Source: Neoconidiobolus thromboides FSU 785 (taxonomy: Eukaryota > Entomophthoromycota > Entomophthoromycetes > Entomophthorales > Neoconidiobolaceae). From it: a DNA stretch of 33,385 nt. Under the pieces are notes generated by a model that saw nothing but the letters and a program-made list of their open reading frames with translations, was not told the DNA's origin and did no database searches. The position numbers and the translations under genes were made by a program. Within the stretch, counting starts at the first letter, position 1. Each line of letters opens with the position of its first letter. Shown piece after piece: positions 2,633 to 29,756 of the stretch. The stretch is from positions 1 to 33,385 of the forward strand of contig MU626469.1 in assembly GCA_025603075.1 (NCBI GenBank). Reading direction: 5' to 3'.

Positions 2633-3275
2633 ATATAATAAAATACCTTCATATTTATTATAAAACTTTGAAAATTTACGTATCAATAAGATATCATTTC
2701 TTAAGTTTTTATATTATATAATCAATGCAATCATATAACTTTGTTTACGTTCAATAATTCCTTACTTTGCCTTGAAAACAAGATAAATCTTTTCAAGTCT
2801 TTCAGCTGCTATTTGGAGTGAAAATTTTGAAAAAATTACAGGTTTTTACTTCTCCTTATCTCTTACCTTTAATTATTTATCTCTTTAGCCTTCTCCACTT
2901 GTCCCATTAATTAGTTTTATTAATCCACGTATTGATTCAGTTTGAAAATTAACTTAATTATTTAAAAAAGAATATAAAAAAGCAGTCTTTTAATATAATG
3001 AATAACAAATAAATAGAGATCTAATTACTACAGTTAGTAAACATAACATTAAATTCTTTTATTTACACCTAACCAAATTTGAAATGTTCTTCAACTAAAA
3101 TTAAATTCAGAGTTAATGAAACTTTGGATTAGTCTAAAACCTTGTTAAATATTCTTTTAGGGTCTATGCAAGTAAAAAATCAATGAAGTAGATAAAACAA
3201 TCGCAATTCTTTTACTAAATGTGGTTGATATGACGAATAAAACAATGCACTCTCTTTTGAACTAAAACTATTACA
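2633..3275. other. Intergenic, no gene seen
   Basis: AT-rich spacer between the receptor and the kelch relic. The last ~30 bases resemble the sequence upstream of the intact kelch gene (CTCTTTTG followed by AACTAAAAC/AATTTAAAAC), so the duplication that gave the relic probably included its promoter side. No other structure is apparent. Confidence 0.5.
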
Positions 3276-4716
3276 ATTTTTTGTCAAAGACTTGTGTTAA
3301 TTGTGTTATGTGATATCGATAAGCTTGTTAAAACAACAATTAGTTGTGAATTTACATGTTTATTTGCAGAAACTGGTGGGATTATAAATAATACATTGTA
3401 TGTTTTTGAAGCAATAGACACGAAAAATATAGATTTTAATAGTAGTATCTATAACAAGGCTTTATTTAGCAGCGGTGTTTATATTTTGAGTCTTAAGAGT
3501 GGAATACAACTAAATGGCGCACAAGAGGCGGATTAGGAACGTAACCAACTTGACAATCATCCTTTTGGGACATTGTTTGTACCAAATGTCATTGAAATAG
3601 AGAACACTTTAGAAGAGTTTTTTGTCATAGGTGGGTCTCATTAGACATCTATTGAAGAAAATGTAAAGATATTTGATACAAAGCCAAACGTATAGAAAAT
3701 TGGTACAGATGTAGATGAGTTTACAAAAGGATTAAACTTTTCAAAATCAAAAGGAGGGACATCAAAATTTGGACCAGTAGAAGCTGCTTCAAATCATTTT
3801 GATTTAAATCCTGATGAGTTGGTTCTATATGGTGGGGAGTATTTCTTTAAAAAGAAATTAAAAAATATAAGGCACAACCCTATCCAGGGTTAATAGCTTA
3901 TAACTCAAGGAATAATCAATGAAAGACTATTAGTGAGCAAGATTATTATCATATTTATGGTCCTAGTTCAATTGTATATAACGCTAACTTGATAGTGTTT
4001 GGTGGGAAGAATACTGCTACTTAGGAATATCTTGGGATTTAAAAATGTCATTAGTTTTTTTCAAAATGCACCAGGGAAATTCTTAGAAAGGTTTGTTAAT
4101 TTTGGGTTAAAAAAAGGATGACCATGTTTACATCTTAAATGGTATTACTAACAACGGTGAGACCAATTATGGAGATAGTTTTCTTTATGTTTTAGATTTA
4201 AATACCCTTATTTGGGAAAGTAAGTATGCTTCTGGATTAACTAGCATTATATCTACCACAACGAGATGTTATAATGGCTATCTTCCGTGCAATTTTGGAG
4301 TGTACAATAATTTCACCTACTCAAAGCACAGATAGTGAGCCTTAGTAATTGTACCTTGGTAAATCAAATATCCTTAATGGAAGAACTAGGAAACAAAATC
4401 AAAAGCCGATTATATGTTGTCATCGGTGAATCAATAGAAAGATTTATTGGGTTAACAATATTAATCATTTTATGCTAATTTGGATGTAAGGACCAAGAGA
4501 AAGATTGTTAAAAGAACCCCATTTCTCTTTGTTTTAGAACCCACTTGCAATAAAACACAACTTGCTGCTAACTACCGAAAATTATCATTCGATAATGATC
4601 ATGGGTTCGATACTAGTATATCTAAACTAGAAAAAAAATCGTGGTTTAGGATTAAACCATGTTTATTCAAAGCTGAGTGGTATGACTGTCAAGGATATAG
4701 TATGTCTTTCAAATAA
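3276..4716 (+). pseudogene. Decayed paralog of the kelch-repeat membrane protein
   Basis: Nearly the whole length aligns by eye with the intact kelch protein at 27381-28778 once stops and frame changes are bridged. Recognisable blocks, in order, are a degraded leader (FCQRLVLIVL against FYQSLILNIL), TGGIINNTLYVF against VGGIVNDTFYVF, FFVIGGSH, FTKGLNFSKSKGGT, DLNPDELVLYGGEYFF, LIVFGGKN, HVYILNGITNNG, a remnant of the transmembrane segment, and the cytoplasmic KRTPFLFVLEPTCNKTQ. The start codon position reads ATT. At least five in-frame stops replace Trp or Gln codons (for example near 3535, 3642, 3692 and 3920), and there are several frameshifts (near 3860, 4035, 4120 and 4480). No intact product is possible. 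It is an old, non-processed duplicate. Confidence 0.88.
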
Positions 4717-8070: not shown

Positions 8071-9075
8071 ATGCAAATGTTGACTCAGGAACAATTAGAA
8101 ACAATAGACCGGGTTGGGTTAATAGTATTAATACTCTCCTTCACTAGTAGCGTACTAGTCTTGTTAATAGTGTTGGTAAGCAGGCTATTAAAACTACGAG
8201 GTAGCCAAAGGCTAAGTTATAGACTGCAGTTATGGATTTCGCTGGCTGATATTCTATTTTGTATTGCCTATTCCTTCCCTATTTTCATATCTAACGATAA
8301 TATTGGTCATACGAATTCTATAATGGAAATTCGATTTTTTCAATTAGCCAACGCCAATATACCTATCTTTTGTCAACTATGGTACATGTTGTTGATATTT
8401 TTTATCATTTTGACTTTACATTTTACTTTATTTCTAAAGAATAGTAGATATGTTTATCTGTTCAATGAGTTAAATATTGTAATCACCACATTTTTGATAT
8501 CTCTTTTATTTATACTACCATCATTTATTATATGCTGGGTTAACAACAAATATACTGTTCTTGATTTCTTTCCTATTGGTATCTCTAAATTCTTAATCCT
8601 TTGGTTACAACTTAATTTAGTATTATTCATTATTAGCACATATTGCACAATTATGGTGGTTAAAATCAGCATATTATTATTGAATTATAAAAAAGCGCTT
8701 GATGCCATCTATTTACAAAATACTAGTCAAAGTTTGATAGAATCCTATATCGATGTTAAGGCAAACCAAGTGATCAATAAAAATCTCTGTGAGATAGTAC
8801 TGAGAGTCATTTTTTATGCCATTATTCCTATTACCACTCAGTTCATTTTTGTAGTTATCTCATCATATTACACTTTGTCCAAAGAAAGAAATAGCTTTGG
8901 ATTAAGGATTGTTTATGATAGCTTGAATTTTTTGAACGGTTTGCTCAATTCGCTGTTCTTTTTATGTTTTGATCCTGCATTGCCTAGTATCTTTAAAGAG
9001 TTTATTACAATTTATATCAGAAAGGAGAGTTATGAAAATTTACAATCATGTTACAGTGATAAGATTAATATTTAA
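8071..9075 (+). CDS. Seven-transmembrane receptor (GPCR-like), short third loop
   Basis: Single-exon gene of 334 residues. It is a clear paralog of the receptor at 1502-2632: SQRLSYRLQLW and ADILF in TM2, LWYMLLIFFIILTLHFTLF in TM3, IVLRVIFYAIIPITTQFIF in TM6, and NSFGLRIVYDSLNFLNGLLN leading to FDPALPSIF after TM7. Seven hydrophobic stretches lie at about 16-40, 52-74, 96-122, 134-155, 172-200, 240-262 and 275-300. The third intracellular loop is only about 40 residues, half that of its paralog, and lacks the Ser/Thr-rich insert, so coupling or desensitisation may differ. The C-terminal tail is short. Ligand unknown. The two receptors are about 5.4 kb apart with unrelated genes between them, so this is an old local duplication. 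Confidence 0.75.
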   Translation: MQMLTQEQLETIDRVGLIVLILSFTSSVLVLLIVLVSRLLKLRGSQRLSYRLQLWISLADILFCIAYSFPIFISNDNIGHTNSIMEIRFFQLANANIPIFCQLWYMLLIFFIILTLHFTLFLKNSRYVYLFNELNIVITTFLISLLFILPSFIICWVNNKYTVLDFFPIGISKFLILWLQLNLVLFIISTYCTIMVVKISILLLNYKKALDAIYLQNTSQSLIESYIDVKANQVINKNLCEIVLRVIFYAIIPITTQFIFVVISSYYTLSKERNSFGLRIVYDSLNFLNGLLNSLFFLCFDPALPSIFKEFITIYIRKESYENLQSCYSDKINI

Positions 9076-18668: not shown

Positions 18669-19403
18669 CTTTAAAAAATATTTTAAAAAACTTCAACTAG
18701 TAAAAGAAGTGCTTGGACCTAGATAAGTAAATAAATGGGCGCTAATTGGCTGCTTTTTAATTGGGAAAAGATTTAACTACTTGACTCAATACTACTATAT
18801 AGTAGATTTTAAAATAACAGTATATAATACTATCACTTATAAAACACTGTTTTTAATAAATAGAAAGATAAAGGAATTGATTATAAAGTAGTTTTAAACA
18901 TTCTTATAGAGTGTTAATAGGGATTTAGCTTTACTTTGAGACTTTTGAGATAATAGTTTTTCGAAAATATCAATTTATAGTGGCACTTGTATTGCATAAT
19001 AAGGGATGAGAGAATAAAATAATCAATGAGGCAGTTAGAATATATGTAACTAAAGTAATGAATTTTTAAAAATCATCACTGGTAGTGAACGCATGGTTAA
19101 CTCTTTGATTGATATCTTCCATGTTCAAGTAAACAAGTAATCAACATAATCAAAATTATATACTAAGTTGAAAAATTAGCCATAAAAAATTTATTAGAAA
19201 AGCAAAAAAACAGTCTTTAAACGTGAAAAGCTAAGACATTAAATTATTTACATGTTAAAGGTTAAGATTAAGATCTTATTGGTGTTGTCATTATACTAAG
19301 ACGCAATAGTTTTAGATATACATAACCCTATCTTCATTCTTTTTTGGTATCTCTGTTATTATTGTATTACTTTATAGTTATTTTATATTAAGAAATATTA
19401 ATA
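18669..19403. other. Intergenic, TAF5 promoter side
   Basis: Divergent spacer upstream of TAF5 and, farther off, of the GDSL-fold gene. Two CCAAT boxes lie close to TAF5. The remainder is AT-rich without coding frame; MITE copy M2 follows at 19404. Confidence 0.5.
18745..18764 (-). promoter_or_regulatory. Two CCAAT boxes upstream of TAF5
   Basis: On the minus strand CCAAT occurs at 18749-18745 and 18764-18760, 77-96 bp before the ATG at 18668 and 15 bp apart. Paired CCAAT boxes suit a constitutive promoter served by the HAP/NF-Y complex. No TATA box is visible nearby. Confidence 0.35.
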
Positions 19404-19500
19404 TGGGGATGTATTCTTTTGCTTGAGGATTTTACTAACAATTTTTCTACTCAAATAGTGCTTAAAAAATGGAAAAGTAATGAAACCAAAAACATCCCCA
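19404..19500 (+). mobile_element. MITE family M, copy M2 (intact ends)
   Basis: 97 bp from TGGGGATGT to ACATCCCCA, perfect 9-bp terminal inverted repeats, flanked on both sides by TA (19402-19403 and 19501-19502) as a target-site duplication. The inside carries TTTTACTAACAATTTTTC, CTCAAATAGTGCTTAAAAAA and TGGAAAAG, shared with the other copies. No coding capacity; mobilisation would need a transposase from elsewhere. Confidence 0.8.
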
Positions 19501-19920
19501 TATAATAGTTAAAAAATAATAATTCTAGTTAAAAATTGAAGAGTCATTTAGTTACAACAATCAATATTTAAGGCTTAAATATTTTTATAAATCTTTCTTA
19601 CTGTAGCAACTCTATATTCTTAAAATAATTTTGAAGTTCCTAAAAAATAAAGGAGTTATAGAAACCCTGCTATAAAATTTTATGCTATTTCTTGTATTCT
19701 AATTTTAAATTAAATATCTTAATCTTTTATATAAGTTTGAAAAACCACAGCTTGAACTTTTCGTCTAAACAAGTTTGTGTGTCATTATTTTTAGATTGTG
19801 AATTTCCTGCCCAAAAAGCAGCCCACTCCGATTGATTCACTCAAATTAATTTGTACTTTTTAAGGATAAAAATCAACAAGATCAACTTGATAAAAATAAA
19901 AATGCAGTATGCTCAAAACT
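19501..19920. other. Intergenic, upstream of the GDSL-fold gene
   Basis: AT-rich spacer between MITE M2 and the TATA box at 19921. Nothing else stands out except a less AT-rich patch around 19810-19835. Confidence 0.45.
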
Positions 19921-19927
19921 TATATAA
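19921..19927 (+). promoter_or_regulatory. TATA box of the GDSL-fold gene
   Basis: TATATAA lies 34-40 bp before the ATG at 19961. Prediction from position only. Confidence 0.4.
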
Positions 19928-19960: not shown

Positions 19961-20978
19961 ATGAAGGGACTATTTTCATCCACCTTATTAATAGCTGGTC
20001 TATTAGGACTCTTACCAACTGCTTATTGCGTCAAGTATAAAAATATCATAGCATTTGGAGACGGCTTTTCAGATTTTGGGAACTATTTTGAAAATAATGG
20101 TCGTCAAGATCCAGACCCAAAATTTTATTTTAAAGGTAGAACTTCAAATGGACCATTATGGATTGAATATTTAACTAAAGCTTTGGGGAGTCCAAAGTTG
20201 AAGTCATTTGCTTATCATTTAGCTACATGTAATGGAAAAGGTAACTAGCTGTATACAAATAGCTTTTTTTACTAATATCTTTTTAGGAAACTACATTAAT
20301 AAAGCACCTGGGGCCAACAGCCAAGTAAACGTACTGTTTAAAAAATACTACGAAGAAAATAAGGAAAGGTTGGACAAAGAAAAGAACGATTCGTTATTAT
20401 GCTATACTTTTACTGGGTCAGAATATTTTTTAGATGACATAGGTGCGGAAGAAGTGGTAAAAGAACTGGAGACCCACTTAAAAGAAGCTCTTAGACTTTA
20501 TCCAGTTAAGGATGTATTGATTCCTATTAGCACTAATGTCGATTCATTGGAAGTTACTAAGGAATACTCAAGTCTTAAAACTATAACTCCTTCAATATTC
20601 AAATCTGATTTCAAAGAAAGTTGGACCTTTGCTATAGAAAATCTGAAGGACGAGTTTCCTGATATCAATTTTATAGAATATGACTATGATTGTAAGATAA
20701 CTATTTATTATTTTAACAACTTATTAATCTCTGATTTAGTGTTTTGGAATCGCTTATCTAGCACTCCAGCTGAAGACGGAAACGGGAAGCTATTTATTAC
20801 GGATAAACCCTGTTTGACTACGGACTCTGATGGACACAAAACCAAATGTGATGACCCAAGTAAGTTTGCCCTCTATGATCCCTTCTATCCTACTACCGAA
20901 GTACATAAATTGATTGCTAAAGACGTTTTAAAATACCTTAAAGCTGGTACTAATCCATATGCTAATATGTATTATTGA
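19961..20978 (+). CDS. Secreted GDSL/SGNH-fold protein, catalytic site lost
   Basis: Three exons: 19961-20240, 20287-20691 and 20740-20978, with introns of 46 and 48 bp, giving 307 residues. Signal peptide about 1-23 (cleavage after AYC). The layout is that of fungal GDSL esterases/lysophospholipases: block I IIAFGDGFSDFGNYF, then KGRTSNGPLWIEYL, block II FAYHLAT, block III FTGSEYF, and a C-terminal DPSKFALYDPFYPTTEVHKL. Every SGNH residue differs from the norm: the nucleophile Ser is Gly35 (GDG for GDS), the block II GG is His86-Leu87, the block III Asn is Ser138, and the catalytic His of DxxHP is Tyr278. Frame, splice sites and signal are intact, so it looks expressed but catalytically dead: a secreted pseudoenzyme, perhaps lipid-binding (inference). 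A TATA box lies 34-40 bp upstream of the start. Confidence 0.85.
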
Positions 20979-21641
20979 ATAAATTGGTTATTTGCTTAAA
21001 ATGTTGTATGTGAAATTGGTTATTCTAAATTTATAATTGAAACTATGAAGTAATGTTTATTATCATAACATAGACTTCATCTGGTTGTTTCATCAAAACC
21101 ACATTTAAATATTGAATTATAGTGGATCCAAATACTATCAACAATAAGGCTTGTCCTTTCATTATTAATTCAATAGTAGCCCCATTGAGTCTAAAAATAG
21201 CACTCTTAATAAAATAAATCCAACAATTTCGAAAATATACCAATATTAAGTAAAATCCAGCGCTATTAGTTATAGTATAAACATTAATAAAATACTATCG
21301 CAATTTTTCTGGAATATTCAATATGAGATGGAATTTAAAATTTGGCTATTAGATAATCTAAAAAAGTTAATAGTAAGAGACGTAGCTTCTGGCATCACCA
21401 CCTTTAATTTACTTTTATTTTTGATTCAAATTCAAACATAGGGCCCCTTTGGCATCTTTATAAAAAACAGACTTTAATATATAACTTTCTTTAGGTGTTA
21501 ACTCCTATACTGTTTATTTTAAGTGTTAGACTTATATTTGATAATAGATAGCTATATTAACTAAAATTTTAAGCTCATAATAATAGTGTAACCTTTTAAC
21601 TCATTAACTGGTTTTTATTATCTCCGCAAGGAGTTCAAGAC
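20979..21641. other. Intergenic with a possible gene relic
   Basis: Spacer between the GDSL-fold gene and the truncated protease. It contains the weak minus-strand coding-like stretch listed at 21043-21330. The rest (21331-21641) shows no frame or repeat I recognise. Confidence 0.45.
21043..21330 (-). pseudogene. Possible relic of a membrane-protein gene
   Basis: On the minus strand about 95 codons read with a single internal stop (TAG near 21295), where random DNA this AT-rich would give seven or more. The peptide has hydrophobic runs (GFYLILVYF, QALLLIVFGSTIIQYLNVV) split by charged turns and reads like part of a polytopic membrane protein. I recognise no family. It has no clear start and could be chance. 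Confidence 0.25.
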
Positions 21642-21945
21642 TTATAAATATTGTTGAATAAAGCTCTTAAGATATGAAACACGAGCGAAAACAGAGTAAG
21701 ATCTGCAGGCATTACCGTATGAAACGGTACCTACTAAAATATTACCATTAGCAACTAATGGACCTCCAGAATCTCCATTACATGGGGTTTCAACATCAGT
21801 AGCACCATGTACACAAACAGACCAACGACCATCGTAACCTCCAAGAGATCTTTGACATTCAGAATCAGCTCTGACAGTAAGCCCTACCTGTAAGAGAGTA
21901 CTGGATGATGGACCACCGTTACGGATGTTACCCCATCCATAGTTT
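21642..21945 (-). CDS. Trypsin-like S1 serine protease, C-terminal part cut by gap
   Basis: The reading frame enters from the N gap and gives about 101 residues to the stop at 21642. It contains YGWGNIRNGGPSSSTLLQVG, the ECQ...C disulphide pair, ETPCNGDSGGPL with the catalytic Ser, and the C-terminal helix YLKSFIQQYL. It matches the end of the intact protease at 25132-25860. The His and Asp of the triad and the leader fall in or beyond the gap, so whether the gene is whole cannot be told. Against the intact copy about 22 of 209 bases differ up to 21850, then none of the 95 bases that abut the gap. Like its partner it has Thr at the base of the S1 pocket. Truncation is by assembly, not by mutation seen here. 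Confidence 0.85.
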
Positions 21946-22045
21946 NNNNNNNNNNNNNNNNNNNNNNNNNNNNNNNNNNNNNNNNNNNNNNNNNNNNNNN
22001 NNNNNNNNNNNNNNNNNNNNNNNNNNNNNNNNNNNNNNNNNNNNN
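21946..22045. other. Assembly gap (100 N)
   Basis: Exactly 100 N, the conventional filler for a gap of unknown size. The left edge cuts a protease gene and the right edge begins with repeat R, so order and distance across it depend on scaffolding alone. Confidence 0.99.
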
Positions 22046-22234
22046 ATACTATTCTTTATAAATTAAGTCTATCTTAGTTACATAAACTAAGGTCTTTCGA
22101 CTTAGAACCAATCAATCAATCAAGAACTACTTTTGACTCCAATCACTGAGCATCGGATTTCACATTTTATATTAACAAGGAGTAGTATTTAATATTTGAA
22201 TGTTTTATAATAACTATTTTTTTTTTGAAGTTTA
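22046..22234 (+). repeat. Dispersed repeat R, copy 2 (contig end)
   Basis: Same sequence as 1-188 apart from T/C at 22114, A/G near 22198 and one extra T in the T-run. It starts at the same base as the scaffold start, immediately after the Ns. The identity ends in a stump of MITE M (T-run followed by GAAGTTTA). Confidence 0.85.
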
Positions 22235-22266
22235 TTAATTAACACTTCTATTTTATAACAAATATA

Positions 22267-24449: not shown

Positions 24450-25131
24450 AAGAATGGCTTTTATCATGTTTTTAAAAACAAATAATTAAAATTTTTCTAA
24501 AAAATATAGTAAAGCTATTTCTGATTATCAAATTACTTGTATAAAAACAAGTTCAAAAAACAATTTGCATTTGTTGCTAATATTGTAGATTAATTATCAA
24601 ATCAAAAAAATTAAAATGGGTTTTGAAAATGTCAATTATTGAAAATATAATTAAGTAAAAGGCTGTAAAATACAATCTTGCTTTAGCACATAATGTTATT
24701 TAGTATCCTAAAACTCCTATACTAAGAGTCCAAAATAAAGAAATTCTAATAATTGGTTAAAAAAGTAAAATTATAAGATTTTAATTTTTACAAATAACGC
24801 TTTACAACTTTCAAGTAATCAAAAACAAATATAGATGCTTATATGCTTAAATGAAAGCAAGAACCGTGGTTCAAGGGTATGCCTCTGATTTATTTTCACA
24901 TTACTATTAAACTAGGGCTTTGGTCATTGAACAATAGCAAAAAGTTTAAATAAAATCTACAATCTTTATTATGCACTAAACCATTAAAAATTTATTGCAA
25001 ACATTATTATGAAAACCCGATTAATAATTGTATTAAATATTAAAACAATATAAACTCAAAACTTAAGATGTCTTTATAAAGCTTTTATAATTTGCAAATA
25101 AATTCCATTATCCTTGTTGGGAATTTAAGAC
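24450..25131. other. Convergent intergenic spacer
   Basis: 682 bp of AT-rich DNA between the stops of the beta-lactamase-like gene and the S1 protease. No coding frame, repeat or RNA gene recognised. Confidence 0.5.
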
Positions 25132-25860
25132 TTATAAGTATTGTTGGATAAAACTCTTAAGGTATGAAACACGAGCGAAAACAGAGTAAGATCTGCAAGA
25201 GTCACCGTATGAAACAGTGCCTACTAAAATATTACCATTAGCAACTAATGGACCTCCAGAATCTCCATTGCATGGGGTTTCAACATCAGTAGCACCATGT
25301 GCGCATACAGACCAGCGACCGTCAAAACCATCAAGAGAATTTTGACATTCAGAATCAGCTCTGACAGTAAGCCCTACCTGTAAGAGAGTACTGGATGATG
25401 GACCACCGTTACGGATGTTACCCCATCCATAGTTTACAACAGAAAGTCCTGGAGTAGCAATACCAGTGGTATCAAGTTGAACGAATTGAGTGTTTTTTGA
25501 TGGAGTTGCAAGTTTAATAATGGCTACATCATTTGCAAGGGAGTCATAATCGAAGCCCGGATGAGAGATAATACGAGAAGCACGAAGAGTTTCACCACCT
25601 CCACCACTGAGGTTGGTAATACCTAGACGAACGGTTACTTGACTGGCTGATACACCTTGAACACAGTGGCCAGCGGTAAGTACAGTAGTTGGGTTTAACA
25701 TTTGAGCACCACAGAAATGCCTTCCTCCTGATTGAAGAGAAACCATCCATGGAATCAAAGGAGCTGGAGAGCCACCAACAATACGATCGTTATCTTGAAC
25801 AGCAACTTCTTCAGCAAAGAGAGCTTGAGCAAAAAGTGCAATTAAAACTGGGAATTTCAT
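25132..25860 (-). CDS. Trypsin-like S1 serine protease (zymogen)
   Basis: Single-exon gene of 242 residues. Signal peptide about 1-16, short propeptide ending in Arg26, then mature N-terminus IVGG at 27. Triad: His65 in LTAGHC, Asp111 in NDVAIIKL, Ser201 in GDSGGPL. Six cysteines suit three disulphides (50-66, 172-186, 197-222). Removal of the propeptide after Arg would activate it, as in other S1 enzymes. The base of the S1 pocket (chymotrypsin position 189) is Thr195, not the Asp of true trypsins, and Gly226 is not evident, so cleavage after Lys/Arg is unlikely although the fold is trypsin's. Such secreted enzymes in insect-associated fungi are thought to degrade host protein. A second copy is cut by the gap at 21642-21945. 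A TATA-like box stands about 60 bp upstream. Confidence 0.93.
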   Translation of the reverse strand: MKFPVLIALFAQALFAEEVAVQDNDRIVGGSPAPLIPWMVSLQSGGRHFCGAQMLNPTTVLTAGHCVQGVSASQVTVRLGITNLSGGGGETLRASRIISHPGFDYDSLANDVAIIKLATPSKNTQFVQLDTTGIATPGLSVVNYGWGNIRNGGPSSSTLLQVGLTVRADSECQNSLDGFDGRWSVCAHGATDVETPCNGDSGGPLVANGNILVGTVSYGDSCRSYSVFARVSYLKSFIQQYL

Positions 25861-27380: not shown

Positions 27381-28778
27381 TTATGGTTGCCTTTCTGACT
27401 TAGACATTGTGTTATCGAATTCAAGATCATTATCAAATGAAAAATTTGGGTCATTAACAATAAACTGAGATTTATCACAAGTAGGTTCGGAAACAAAAGG
27501 AGGGGGAGTCCTTTTAATAATTTCTCTTTTGATTTTCTTAGAACCAAGGTAAATCAAAATAATTAATAATATCAATCCAATGAATCCAGCTATTGATCCA
27601 CCGATAATAGCAGGTAATTGACTTTTTGGTTTTAAGCTCTCTAGCTCTTCCATTGAAGGTATTCGGTTTACTAAAGTATAATTCTTCAAATTAATTATTT
27701 GAGTATTTGAGTAAAGGAGATTATTGTGTGAACCAAAAGTATATAATAAATGACCATTATAATACTCTAAAATGGCAAAAGCAGTACTAATAAACCCAGA
27801 TATATATTTTGTTTCCCAACTAAAAGTATTTAAATCTAAAATGTGAAGGGAGCTATCAGCATAATTAGTGACATTATCATTGGTAGCACCACCTAAGATA
27901 TAAACATAATTACCCACCTTTTTTAACCCAAAAGTAAAAATTCTCTCTGGAATTTTTCCAATAGTATCTTGAAAATACCATTTTTTATCTTTAATATTAA
28001 AACTAATAATCTTATTGAAATTAAGATATTGATTAGTAGCTATATTTTTTCCGCCGAATATCATCAAGTTACCATTATGTATAATGGAGTTGTGCCCAGA
28101 TATATAATATCCATTTGCTTCACCAATTGTTTTCCATTGATTTTCTTTGGAATTATAAACTATTAATCCAGAATAAGATTGTGTTTGATTCACTTCAACT
28201 AGACTTTCAAACAAATATTCGCCACCAAACAAAACTAATTCATCAGGATTTAGATCATTTTGATTTAGAGTAGCACCTAAGGGACCGAAATTCGGTGTAC
28301 CTCCTTCTGATTTTGGAAAATTTAATCCCTTGATAAACTTGCCGCCATCCTTATCAATTTTCCATGTATTTGTTTTGATATCAAATATCCTTACACTACG
28401 TTCAATAAGTGTCTGATGAGCTCCACCAATAATAAGAAATTCAGCTGAGTTATTATTTATTTGAATAACACTCGGTGCTAACATTTTATCTAATGGGTGA
28501 TGTTCAAGTGAGTCAATTTTCCAATTAGCTTCTAGAGCTTCATTTAGTCGGACCCCATCTTTAAGGTTTAGTGAATAAACACCCTGATTAAAATTATCTT
28601 GATTGAAAACATCCTCATCGGTTGGATTTTTGATATCCATACCACCAAAAACGTAAAAGGTATCATTTACTATTCCACCTACTCCACCAAATAGTCCATG
28701 TAGTTCATCACTAGCTATTGCTTTTAATAAAACGATTAATGTTATTAATATATTTAATATAAGACTTTGATAAAACAT
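27381..28778 (-). CDS. Kelch-repeat type I membrane protein
   Basis: Single-exon gene of 465 residues. Signal peptide about 1-23, then six kelch-like blades recognised by hydrophobic strands ending in GG or a variant: FYVFGGMD, FLIIGGAH, LVLFGGEY, LMIFGGKN, YVYILGGATND and LLYTFGSHN, each with a downstream W/Y-containing strand. A transmembrane segment at 390-412 (GGSIAGFIGLILLIILIYLG) is followed by KK and a ~53-residue tail with IIKRTPPPFVSEPTCDKSQF. The predicted form is a beta-propeller outside the cell or in the secretory lumen, one membrane pass and a short cytoplasmic tail. The tail motif is also kept in the decayed copy at 3276-4716, so it was under selection. Function unknown; cell-surface binding or sensing is inference. 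No TATA box is clear. Confidence 0.88.
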   Translation of the reverse strand: MFYQSLILNILITLIVLLKAIASDELHGLFGGVGGIVNDTFYVFGGMDIKNPTDEDVFNQDNFNQGVYSLNLKDGVRLNEALEANWKIDSLEHHPLDKMLAPSVIQINNNSAEFLIIGGAHQTLIERSVRIFDIKTNTWKIDKDGGKFIKGLNFPKSEGGTPNFGPLGATLNQNDLNPDELVLFGGEYLFESLVEVNQTQSYSGLIVYNSKENQWKTIGEANGYYISGHNSIIHNGNLMIFGGKNIATNQYLNFNKIISFNIKDKKWYFQDTIGKIPERIFTFGLKKVGNYVYILGGATNDNVTNYADSSLHILDLNTFSWETKYISGFISTAFAILEYYNGHLLYTFGSHNNLLYSNTQIINLKNYTLVNRIPSMEELESLKPKSQLPAIIGGSIAGFIGLILLIILIYLGSKKIKREIIKRTPPPFVSEPTCDKSQFIVNDPNFSFDNDLEFDNTMSKSERQP

Positions 28779-29756
28779 TGAATTGGTTTTAAATTAACAA
28801 AAGAGATAATTAAAATTTATTAATACTCAATTTTATTAACATACTTGATAACAAAAATTGAGGTATTCTTTAAGTATTAATTTGATTTATCACTTTTCAC
28901 CCTTTATTATATTATGTAGTTCATTTTACCTTGTACTTACTCAAAATGGAAAGTGGAAAATTATTTAGGAGCTTTGATCCTTATTTTGAAGGTGTTCTTT
29001 TACAGTTAATTTAATTCTATTTTCAAATAGTTAAAAATTTTATGATAAAAATCGTTTTCTAATGAACTTTTGCAAAGCCTAATCTATATTTTTACCATGA
29101 TTTCAACTTTTTTTTTCTCAAATGAACAAATGATAATTTTGGAATAAAGTTGGATCAACTTAACTTAGCTGCTATTATATTGATGCGATTCTAAGTACCA
29201 TTGTTTTTTTACACAAACTTAGCTAAATATTCTTCAATTTTAAGCTCCCAAAAAGCGGGTAAATTATTAAACTAAAAAAATCCATGCTTATATTGATATT
29301 GCTGTTCCAACTCTTTTTTGAATTAGTCAGTGATAATTTTTAGTTAAATTCCGTTATCTAATCAATTTTTAAGGCCCAATCTTAATTTCAAAGGTGTTTT
29401 TAGTTTCATTGCTTTTTCAATTTCTCAGTTGTGGTTAGAGTGGAAAAGTTATTGAGAAATTCTTAAACAAAAAAATCACCCCCCTTTAGTTAAATTTCAG
29501 TCAAAATTTGGCCCTTAAATGTACAGTAGAATTTTGAGATAAAATAATTATCTCTTCCATTAATTTGTTAATAAATTTAAAATTTATATACAAAACAATC
29601 AATACACTTATTAAATTAGAAATCTTGTGATTAATGACCCCACTTTTTAAAAAGTAATATACAGTATTAGATTTTATATAATAATACTTATTTAACAAAA
29701 TTTGGTTTTTAGAGATATAAAATTTTGGTGTGTAACTTTTTTATATTTTTAGCATA
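28779..29756. other. Intergenic, contains a degraded MITE
   Basis: Divergent spacer between the kelch gene and the P450 gene. It holds degraded MITE M5 (about 29390-29487). Minus-strand frames at 29501-30025 are AT-rich and low in complexity and are not supported. Confidence 0.45.
29390..29487 (-). mobile_element. MITE family M, degraded copy M5
   Basis: Minus orientation with GGTGTTTTTAGTTTCATTGC, TTTTTCAATTT, TTAGAGTGGAAAAGTTATTG, AAATTCTTAAACAAAAAAAT and CACCCCCC. The internal order matches the family but the ends have drifted and no TA flank is evident. Confidence 0.55.

Follow-up and report, generated by a model that had tools for sequence, protein, structure and literature searches.

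A lipase-family protein of Neoconidiobolus thromboides that is probably maintained as a secreted pseudoenzyme

Is a lipase-like gene without most of its catalytic residues on its way out of the genome, or is its product kept for a task other than catalysis? This question is raised by a gene of Neoconidiobolus thromboides FSU 785, a fungus with insect pathogens among its relatives, found on contig MU626469.1 within the stretch of 33,385 nucleotides that was analysed as a whole and is called the window throughout this text. Read directly, positions 19961-20978 of the window hold a single three-exon gene. Its spliced translation of 307 amino acids, referred to as P0001, is exactly the public "hypothetical protein" K502DRAFT_344127, which bears out the intact frame and the two clean introns noted in the original prediction. 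We propose that P0001 is a secreted SGNH/GDSL pseudoenzyme, kept under selection for its folded, secreted domain, and consider this explanation reasonably probable.

Signature residues and family placement

In SGNH enzymes the conserved motifs are known as numbered blocks, and the Gly of block II and the Asn of block III serve in the oxyanion hole. The blocks of P0001 read GDGFSD, FAYHLAT, TGSEYF and DPFYPTT, just as had been claimed before. The genome assembly searched for further family copies comprises 23.1 Mb in 392 contigs. Five were modelled, four of which are exactly the public proteins K502DRAFT_358867, K502DRAFT_331124, K502DRAFT_366274 and K502DRAFT_357995 (P0002-P0005). The fifth, L012 (G000:C3, approximately 316.3-317.5 kb), is a second diverged copy and was not among the public proteins found by protein searches with the family alignment. 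Prokaryotic genomes were scanned with the six-row fungal alignment, by means of two patterns that do not cover the nucleophile. This delivered 75 loci, of which 59 were aligned; Nostoc gave the best of the loci, with 29-31% identity.

At the nucleophile column, Ser is present in 58 of the 59 bacterial rows (one has Ala) and in all four annotated paralogs, while P0001 carries Gly35. The Asn of block III, found in 57/59 bacterial rows and 4/4 paralogs, is replaced by Ser138, and Tyr278 takes the place of the block V His, which is invariant in both sets (59/59 and 4/4). The block V Asp is equally invariant (59/59 and 4/4) and is retained in P0001 as Asp275. Block II is a different matter: its Gly occurs in 55 of the 59 bacterial rows and in two of the four paralogs, and P0001 has Leu87. 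However, since P0004 (L008) and P0005 (L009) carry Ala at this column with Ser, Asn, Asp and His intact, the loss of this Gly in P0001 is not telling. The earlier statement that every catalytic position was lost thus stands for the replacement of Ser, Gly, Asn and His but goes too far with regard to Asp275 and to a Gly that two paralogs also lack. Neither do the annotated paralogs show the FAYGGAT that was ascribed to relatives at block II, as they read FAYAGAT (two), FAYSAAT and FAYAAAT. L012 keeps Ser, Asp and His, carries Asn in place of the block II Gly and Ser in place of the block III Asn, and differs further by a Gly for the Pro after the catalytic His and by a C-terminal extension in our own splice model. 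Because both Ser and His are gone from P0001, we infer that canonical ester hydrolysis is not to be expected of it.

The signature codons carry several changes. Compared with P0004, P0001 has GGC for AGT (two changes), TTA for GCA (two), TCA for AAT (three) and TAT for CAT (one). With 8 of 12 bases changed, the loss of the active site is not one fresh mutation. GGC of Gly35 had been proposed to lie one transition away from AGC; the four paralogs, however, use AGT for this Ser, two changes away. Conservation in the 59 bacterial rows reaches 93% or more at 29 columns. Of these, 17 are retained in P0001, 23 in L012 and 24-28 in each of the four paralogs. P0001 lost S35, N82, G87, G136, N138, D139, L161, G166, P182, N203, F273 and H278 (P0001 numbering), and it retains the motif positions G33-D34, R60, S62-N63-G64 and W67 in addition to Asp275. 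With losses spread at random, the hypergeometric probability of finding every one of the four signature columns among these 12 is 0.02; the value is likewise 0.02 if only the 23 columns also kept by all four paralogs are considered, of which P0001 loses seven, including Ser, Asn and His. Both values are post hoc, and the alignment suggests a moderate concentration of the losses in the active site.

By profile search and structural model, P0001 is placed within a bacterial-like subgroup of PlaA, thermolabile hemolysin (TLH) and ChoE type, which the original prediction had not named. Its nearest solved relatives in the profile search are the thermolabile hemolysin 8h09 (E 4e-30), PlaA (8a24-8a26, 1.9e-27) and ChoE (6uqv, 4.1e-17), and the fold neighbours of the predicted structure are of the same types. 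The motif layout is common to all of them; however, these relatives are active enzymes, and P0001 lacks Ser and His. For PlaA, a lysophospholipase/acyltransferase, the portion of PMC5701174 available to us describes Ser, Asp and His as required for activity. The PlaA equivalog model gives P0001 74.9 bits against a cut-off of 450, and thus P0001 is not a PlaA ortholog. The Pfam model Lipase_GDSL matches residues 29-290 with 24.0 bits (curated cut-off 23.6), the four paralogs reach 63.2-75.0, and the public record of K502DRAFT_344127 holds no precomputed Pfam domain. Fungal enzymes gave weaker profile matches than the bacterial group, namely the CE16 acetyl xylan esterase 7ztn (E 4e-4) and the Aspergillus GDSL acetylesterase AnAE 9l1r (4e-3; best chain 3.6e-4), both enzymes by title. 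Structure prediction returned an alpha/beta/alpha SGNH fold with a predicted local distance difference test score of 85.8, and the fold of P0001 is therefore predicted to be intact. Secretion of P0001 is likewise predicted, with a likely signal peptide judged by eye.

P0001 shares with P0002-P0005 the family, a pair of cysteines and a phase-1 intron at the place of its intron 2, which is also found in the L012 model. Cys253 and Cys265 occur in all six fungal rows and in 45 and 22 of the 59 bacterial rows, respectively. They lie in the region of the disulfide loop described for PlaA in the accessible part of PMC5701174, with a spacing of 11 residues compared to 28 in PlaA (Cys243 to Cys272). 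In contrast to P0001, the four paralogs have Ser, Asn, Asp and His intact, shorter branches and basic domains, with net charges of +3.0 to +4.3 compared to -7.9. We considered the acidic charge as a mark of a new role of P0001 and rejected it, since 44 of the 59 bacterial relatives fall below -6. In a tree sampled from prokaryotes and this genome, the six fungal rows group together (97/96) next to Serratia, Luteibacter and Phaseolibacter, which is at most suggestive of a horizontal transfer of the family from bacteria. P0001 shows 24-30% identity to its nearest family sequences, and synonymous sites between them are expected to be saturated. P0001 and L012 change faster than the other copies, by about twofold. 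Their tip branches measure 1.88 and 1.76, compared to summed values of about 0.9-1.1 for the four paralogs; a smaller tree gave 1.63 and 1.81 for the two copies. A phase-1 intron at codon 92 in our own splice model of L012 lies near intron 1 of P0001 (codon 94), which is at most suggestive of the two copies being sisters.

Decay, maintenance and rival explanations

One alternative is that P0001 is on its way out, with constraint relaxed after duplication and an intact frame that reflects luck or youth. We regard this as unlikely, even though it would accommodate the long tip branch, the loss of 12 of the 29 highly conserved columns and the fact that the equally diverged L012 is not among the public proteins found. 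As a neutral null, the coding sequence of P0004 was evolved toward 75% AT at equilibrium with a kappa of 2 and without insertions or deletions. The first stop appeared at a median divergence of 0.012 per site, and one of 2000 runs (0.05%) passed 0.1 stop-free. At 75% identity a single run of 200 was without a stop, at 60%, 45% and 31% none of 200 was, and at 31% the runs had 18.5 stops on average and eight at minimum. The joint value for a stop-free frame together with changes at six or more of the 12 signature bases was 8e-7 at the most favourable divergence. Similarly, 54 of 61 hydrophobic core columns are preserved in P0001 (58 in P0004, 53 in L012). Neutral runs to 29% identity preserved 39.4 of them on average and at most 48, and at 50% identity one of 300 runs reached 54; all these tests bear on a wholly neutral history and not on a very recent release. 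Entirely neutral evolution from the loss of the active site onward fits badly. Together with the intact frame, the conserved intron 2 and Cys pair and the predicted SGNH fold, this substitution pattern is in line with the original preference for a pseudoenzyme over a dying gene, and from its sequence P0001 is probably a maintained secreted pseudoenzyme.

Several observations weigh against this conclusion. The simulations are compatible with a recent release from constraint, and the long tip branch of P0001 is explained by relaxed constraint just as well as by a new role. Beyond the four signature columns, eight further well-conserved ones are lost, and the Lipase_GDSL score is barely above the cut-off. 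The predicted fold drew on an alignment of active-type relatives, and residues from about 181 to 190 are poorly predicted. Furthermore, no ortholog of P0001 turned up, as protein searches gave only P0001-P0005; these searches were word-limited, with P0001 alone missing its own paralogs, and absence elsewhere is not implied.

If P0001 is maintained, the following course of events could be envisioned. A small family of PlaA/TLH/ChoE type would have arisen by duplication in N. thromboides, one copy would have shed its nucleophile, general base and oxyanion residues, and selection would then have held it as a folded secreted domain. His86 and Leu87 replace two mostly small residues beside the oxyanion site and should thereby remodel the groove. 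Through such a groove P0001 may bind a ligand, be it a lipid, an ester-like compound or a partner protein; of the modes of action considered we give this one the most weight, though we put it forward tentatively. Two narrower forms of this binding idea, which overlap with it and are not exclusive, assign P0001 a more specific task. As a regulator or partner of its four active-looking paralogs, it would act via a heterodimer or a shared substrate. The same genome does encode four paralogs that retain Ser, Asn, Asp and His, the domain charge of P0001 is opposite to theirs, and by analogy pseudoenzyme regulators are known from other families according to sections of PMC10211241. However, most of the bacterial relatives are likewise acidic, the charge is thus no sign of a matched surface, and we consider this role improbable. 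More improbable still is a decoy for host inhibitors or for immune recognition of the active lipases, which draws on the same fold, probable secretion and otherwise analogy. An identity of 24-30% and an opposite charge to the paralogs would make a common binding surface unlikely; moreover, a beetle polygalacturonase pseudoenzyme that offers itself as an analogue was, in excerpts of PMC8213348, unbound by classical inhibitors, yet it bound inhibitor-like proteins. Least probable of all is a rewired enzyme, in which other residues, for example His86, Ser138, Asp275 and His284, catalyse a different reaction. His86 and Ser138 do lie within active-site motifs, Asp275 and His284 are retained, and catalytic residues migrated in other pseudoenzyme families as parts of PMC10211241 report, which may serve as an analogy.

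Gene features and surroundings

The coordinates of the gene and its motifs are compiled in Table 1. Intron 2 (48 bases) is in frame and stop-free, and its retention would add 16 residues. The GC content of the P0001 gene declines from the first to the third codon position, like in the other family copies. A TATA box had been claimed for the gene, and TATATAA is indeed present at 19921-19927, upstream of the ATG. However, it is weak evidence, as the window contains 105 occurrences of TATAWAA compared to 78.5 expected; a promoter scan used a bacterial consensus and is uninformative for P0001.

Table 1. Features of the P0001 gene in the window
Feature	Position	Strand	Basis or remark
Whole gene, ATG to stop	19961-20978	+	Spliced product equals public protein; ATG at 19961, stop at 20976-20978
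Exons 1 to 3	19961-20240, 20287-20691, 20740-20978	+	Direct read; last exon includes stop
Likely signal peptide, residues 1-23	19961-20029	+	By eye; hydrophobic stretch, boundary TAYC-VK (after Cys)
Block I, GDGFSD	20057-20074	+	Alignment and codons; Gly35 (GGC, 20063-20065) at nucleophile Ser position
Block II, FAYHLAT	20207-20227	+	Alignment and codons; Leu87 (TTA, 20219-20221) at Gly position, His86 adjacent
Intron 1, GT...AG	20241-20286	+	Splice read; phase 1, codon 94
Block III, TGSEYF	20412-20429	+	Alignment and codons; Ser138 (TCA, 20418-20420) at oxyanion Asn position, Glu139 for Asp
Intron 2, GT...AG	20692-20739	+	Splice read; phase 1, codon 229
Cys253 to Cys265, putative bond	20811-20849	+	Alignment; region of PlaA-type disulfide loop
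Block V, DPFYPTT	20877-20897	+	Alignment and codons; Asp275 (20877-20879) kept, Tyr278 (TAT, 20886-20888) at His position

A 103-base element (19401-19503), situated upstream at a distance of about 460 bases from the gene, is bounded by 15-base terminal inverted repeats that are 93% complementary. Seven related copies are present in the window, and at least 45 matches were found in the genome, where 40 of 3528 first-look candidates were scored. It looks like an abundant miniature inverted-repeat transposable element. Downstream, 21630-22240 holds part of a trypsin gene copy, which is 92% identical over 316 bases to 25120-25435 and is interrupted by a gap of 100 N (21946-22045). The 195 bases directly after this gap match positions 1-194 of the window at 97%, and the scaffold join may therefore be unsafe. 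A kelch-repeat gene lies at 27381-28793, and a related inverted stretch at 3251-4633, 67% identical over 1431 columns, has only short open frames listed. Two further open frames, 1460-2632 (390 amino acids) and 8071-9075 (334 amino acids), by eye look alike and rich in hydrophobic stretches; neither has a Pfam match at E 0.001.

Place among GDSL pseudoenzymes

GDSL pseudoenzymes are already known in plants. The Arabidopsis protein ERMO3/MVP1/GOLD36 presumably belongs to a GDSL subfamily other than that of P0001. Within the accessible text of PMC3498303, it is described with Gly59 at the position of the catalytic centre and as an apparent pseudoenzyme, and a test suggested that it serves the upkeep of endoplasmic reticulum morphology regardless of enzymatic activity. 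Like P0001, it combines the GDSL family, the secretory route and a Gly at the nucleophile position. However, that text discusses one position, while P0001 also has substitutions at the Asn, His and Gly positions. Dead enzymes make up 3 of 116 Arabidopsis GDSL sequences, according to the part of the plant-wide survey PMC4757993 at hand. Neither the P0001 gene nor a fungal GDSL pseudoenzyme was among the literature matches listed, which covered titles and abstract starts of open-licence papers. The novelty of P0001 lies in its lineage, its subfamily and the loss of nearly its entire active site.

Taken together, one might speculate that a secreted lipase family of bacterial type was horizontally acquired by the Neoconidiobolus lineage and duplicated, and that one copy was stripped of its active site to become a secreted protein that binds lipids or regulates its active sister lipases, as an independent fungal counterpart of the plant GDSL pseudoenzymes; in its entirety we rate this scenario as quite unlikely. 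For annotation, P0001 is a warning, since its score narrowly exceeds the cut-off of the Pfam lipase model, and it could be miscounted as a lipase. If P0001 is indeed a maintained pseudoenzyme, a secreted GDSL pseudoenzyme would have originated independently outside plants, and the four active-looking paralogs of P0001 in one small genome would allow a comparative study of how a non-catalytic role is gained.
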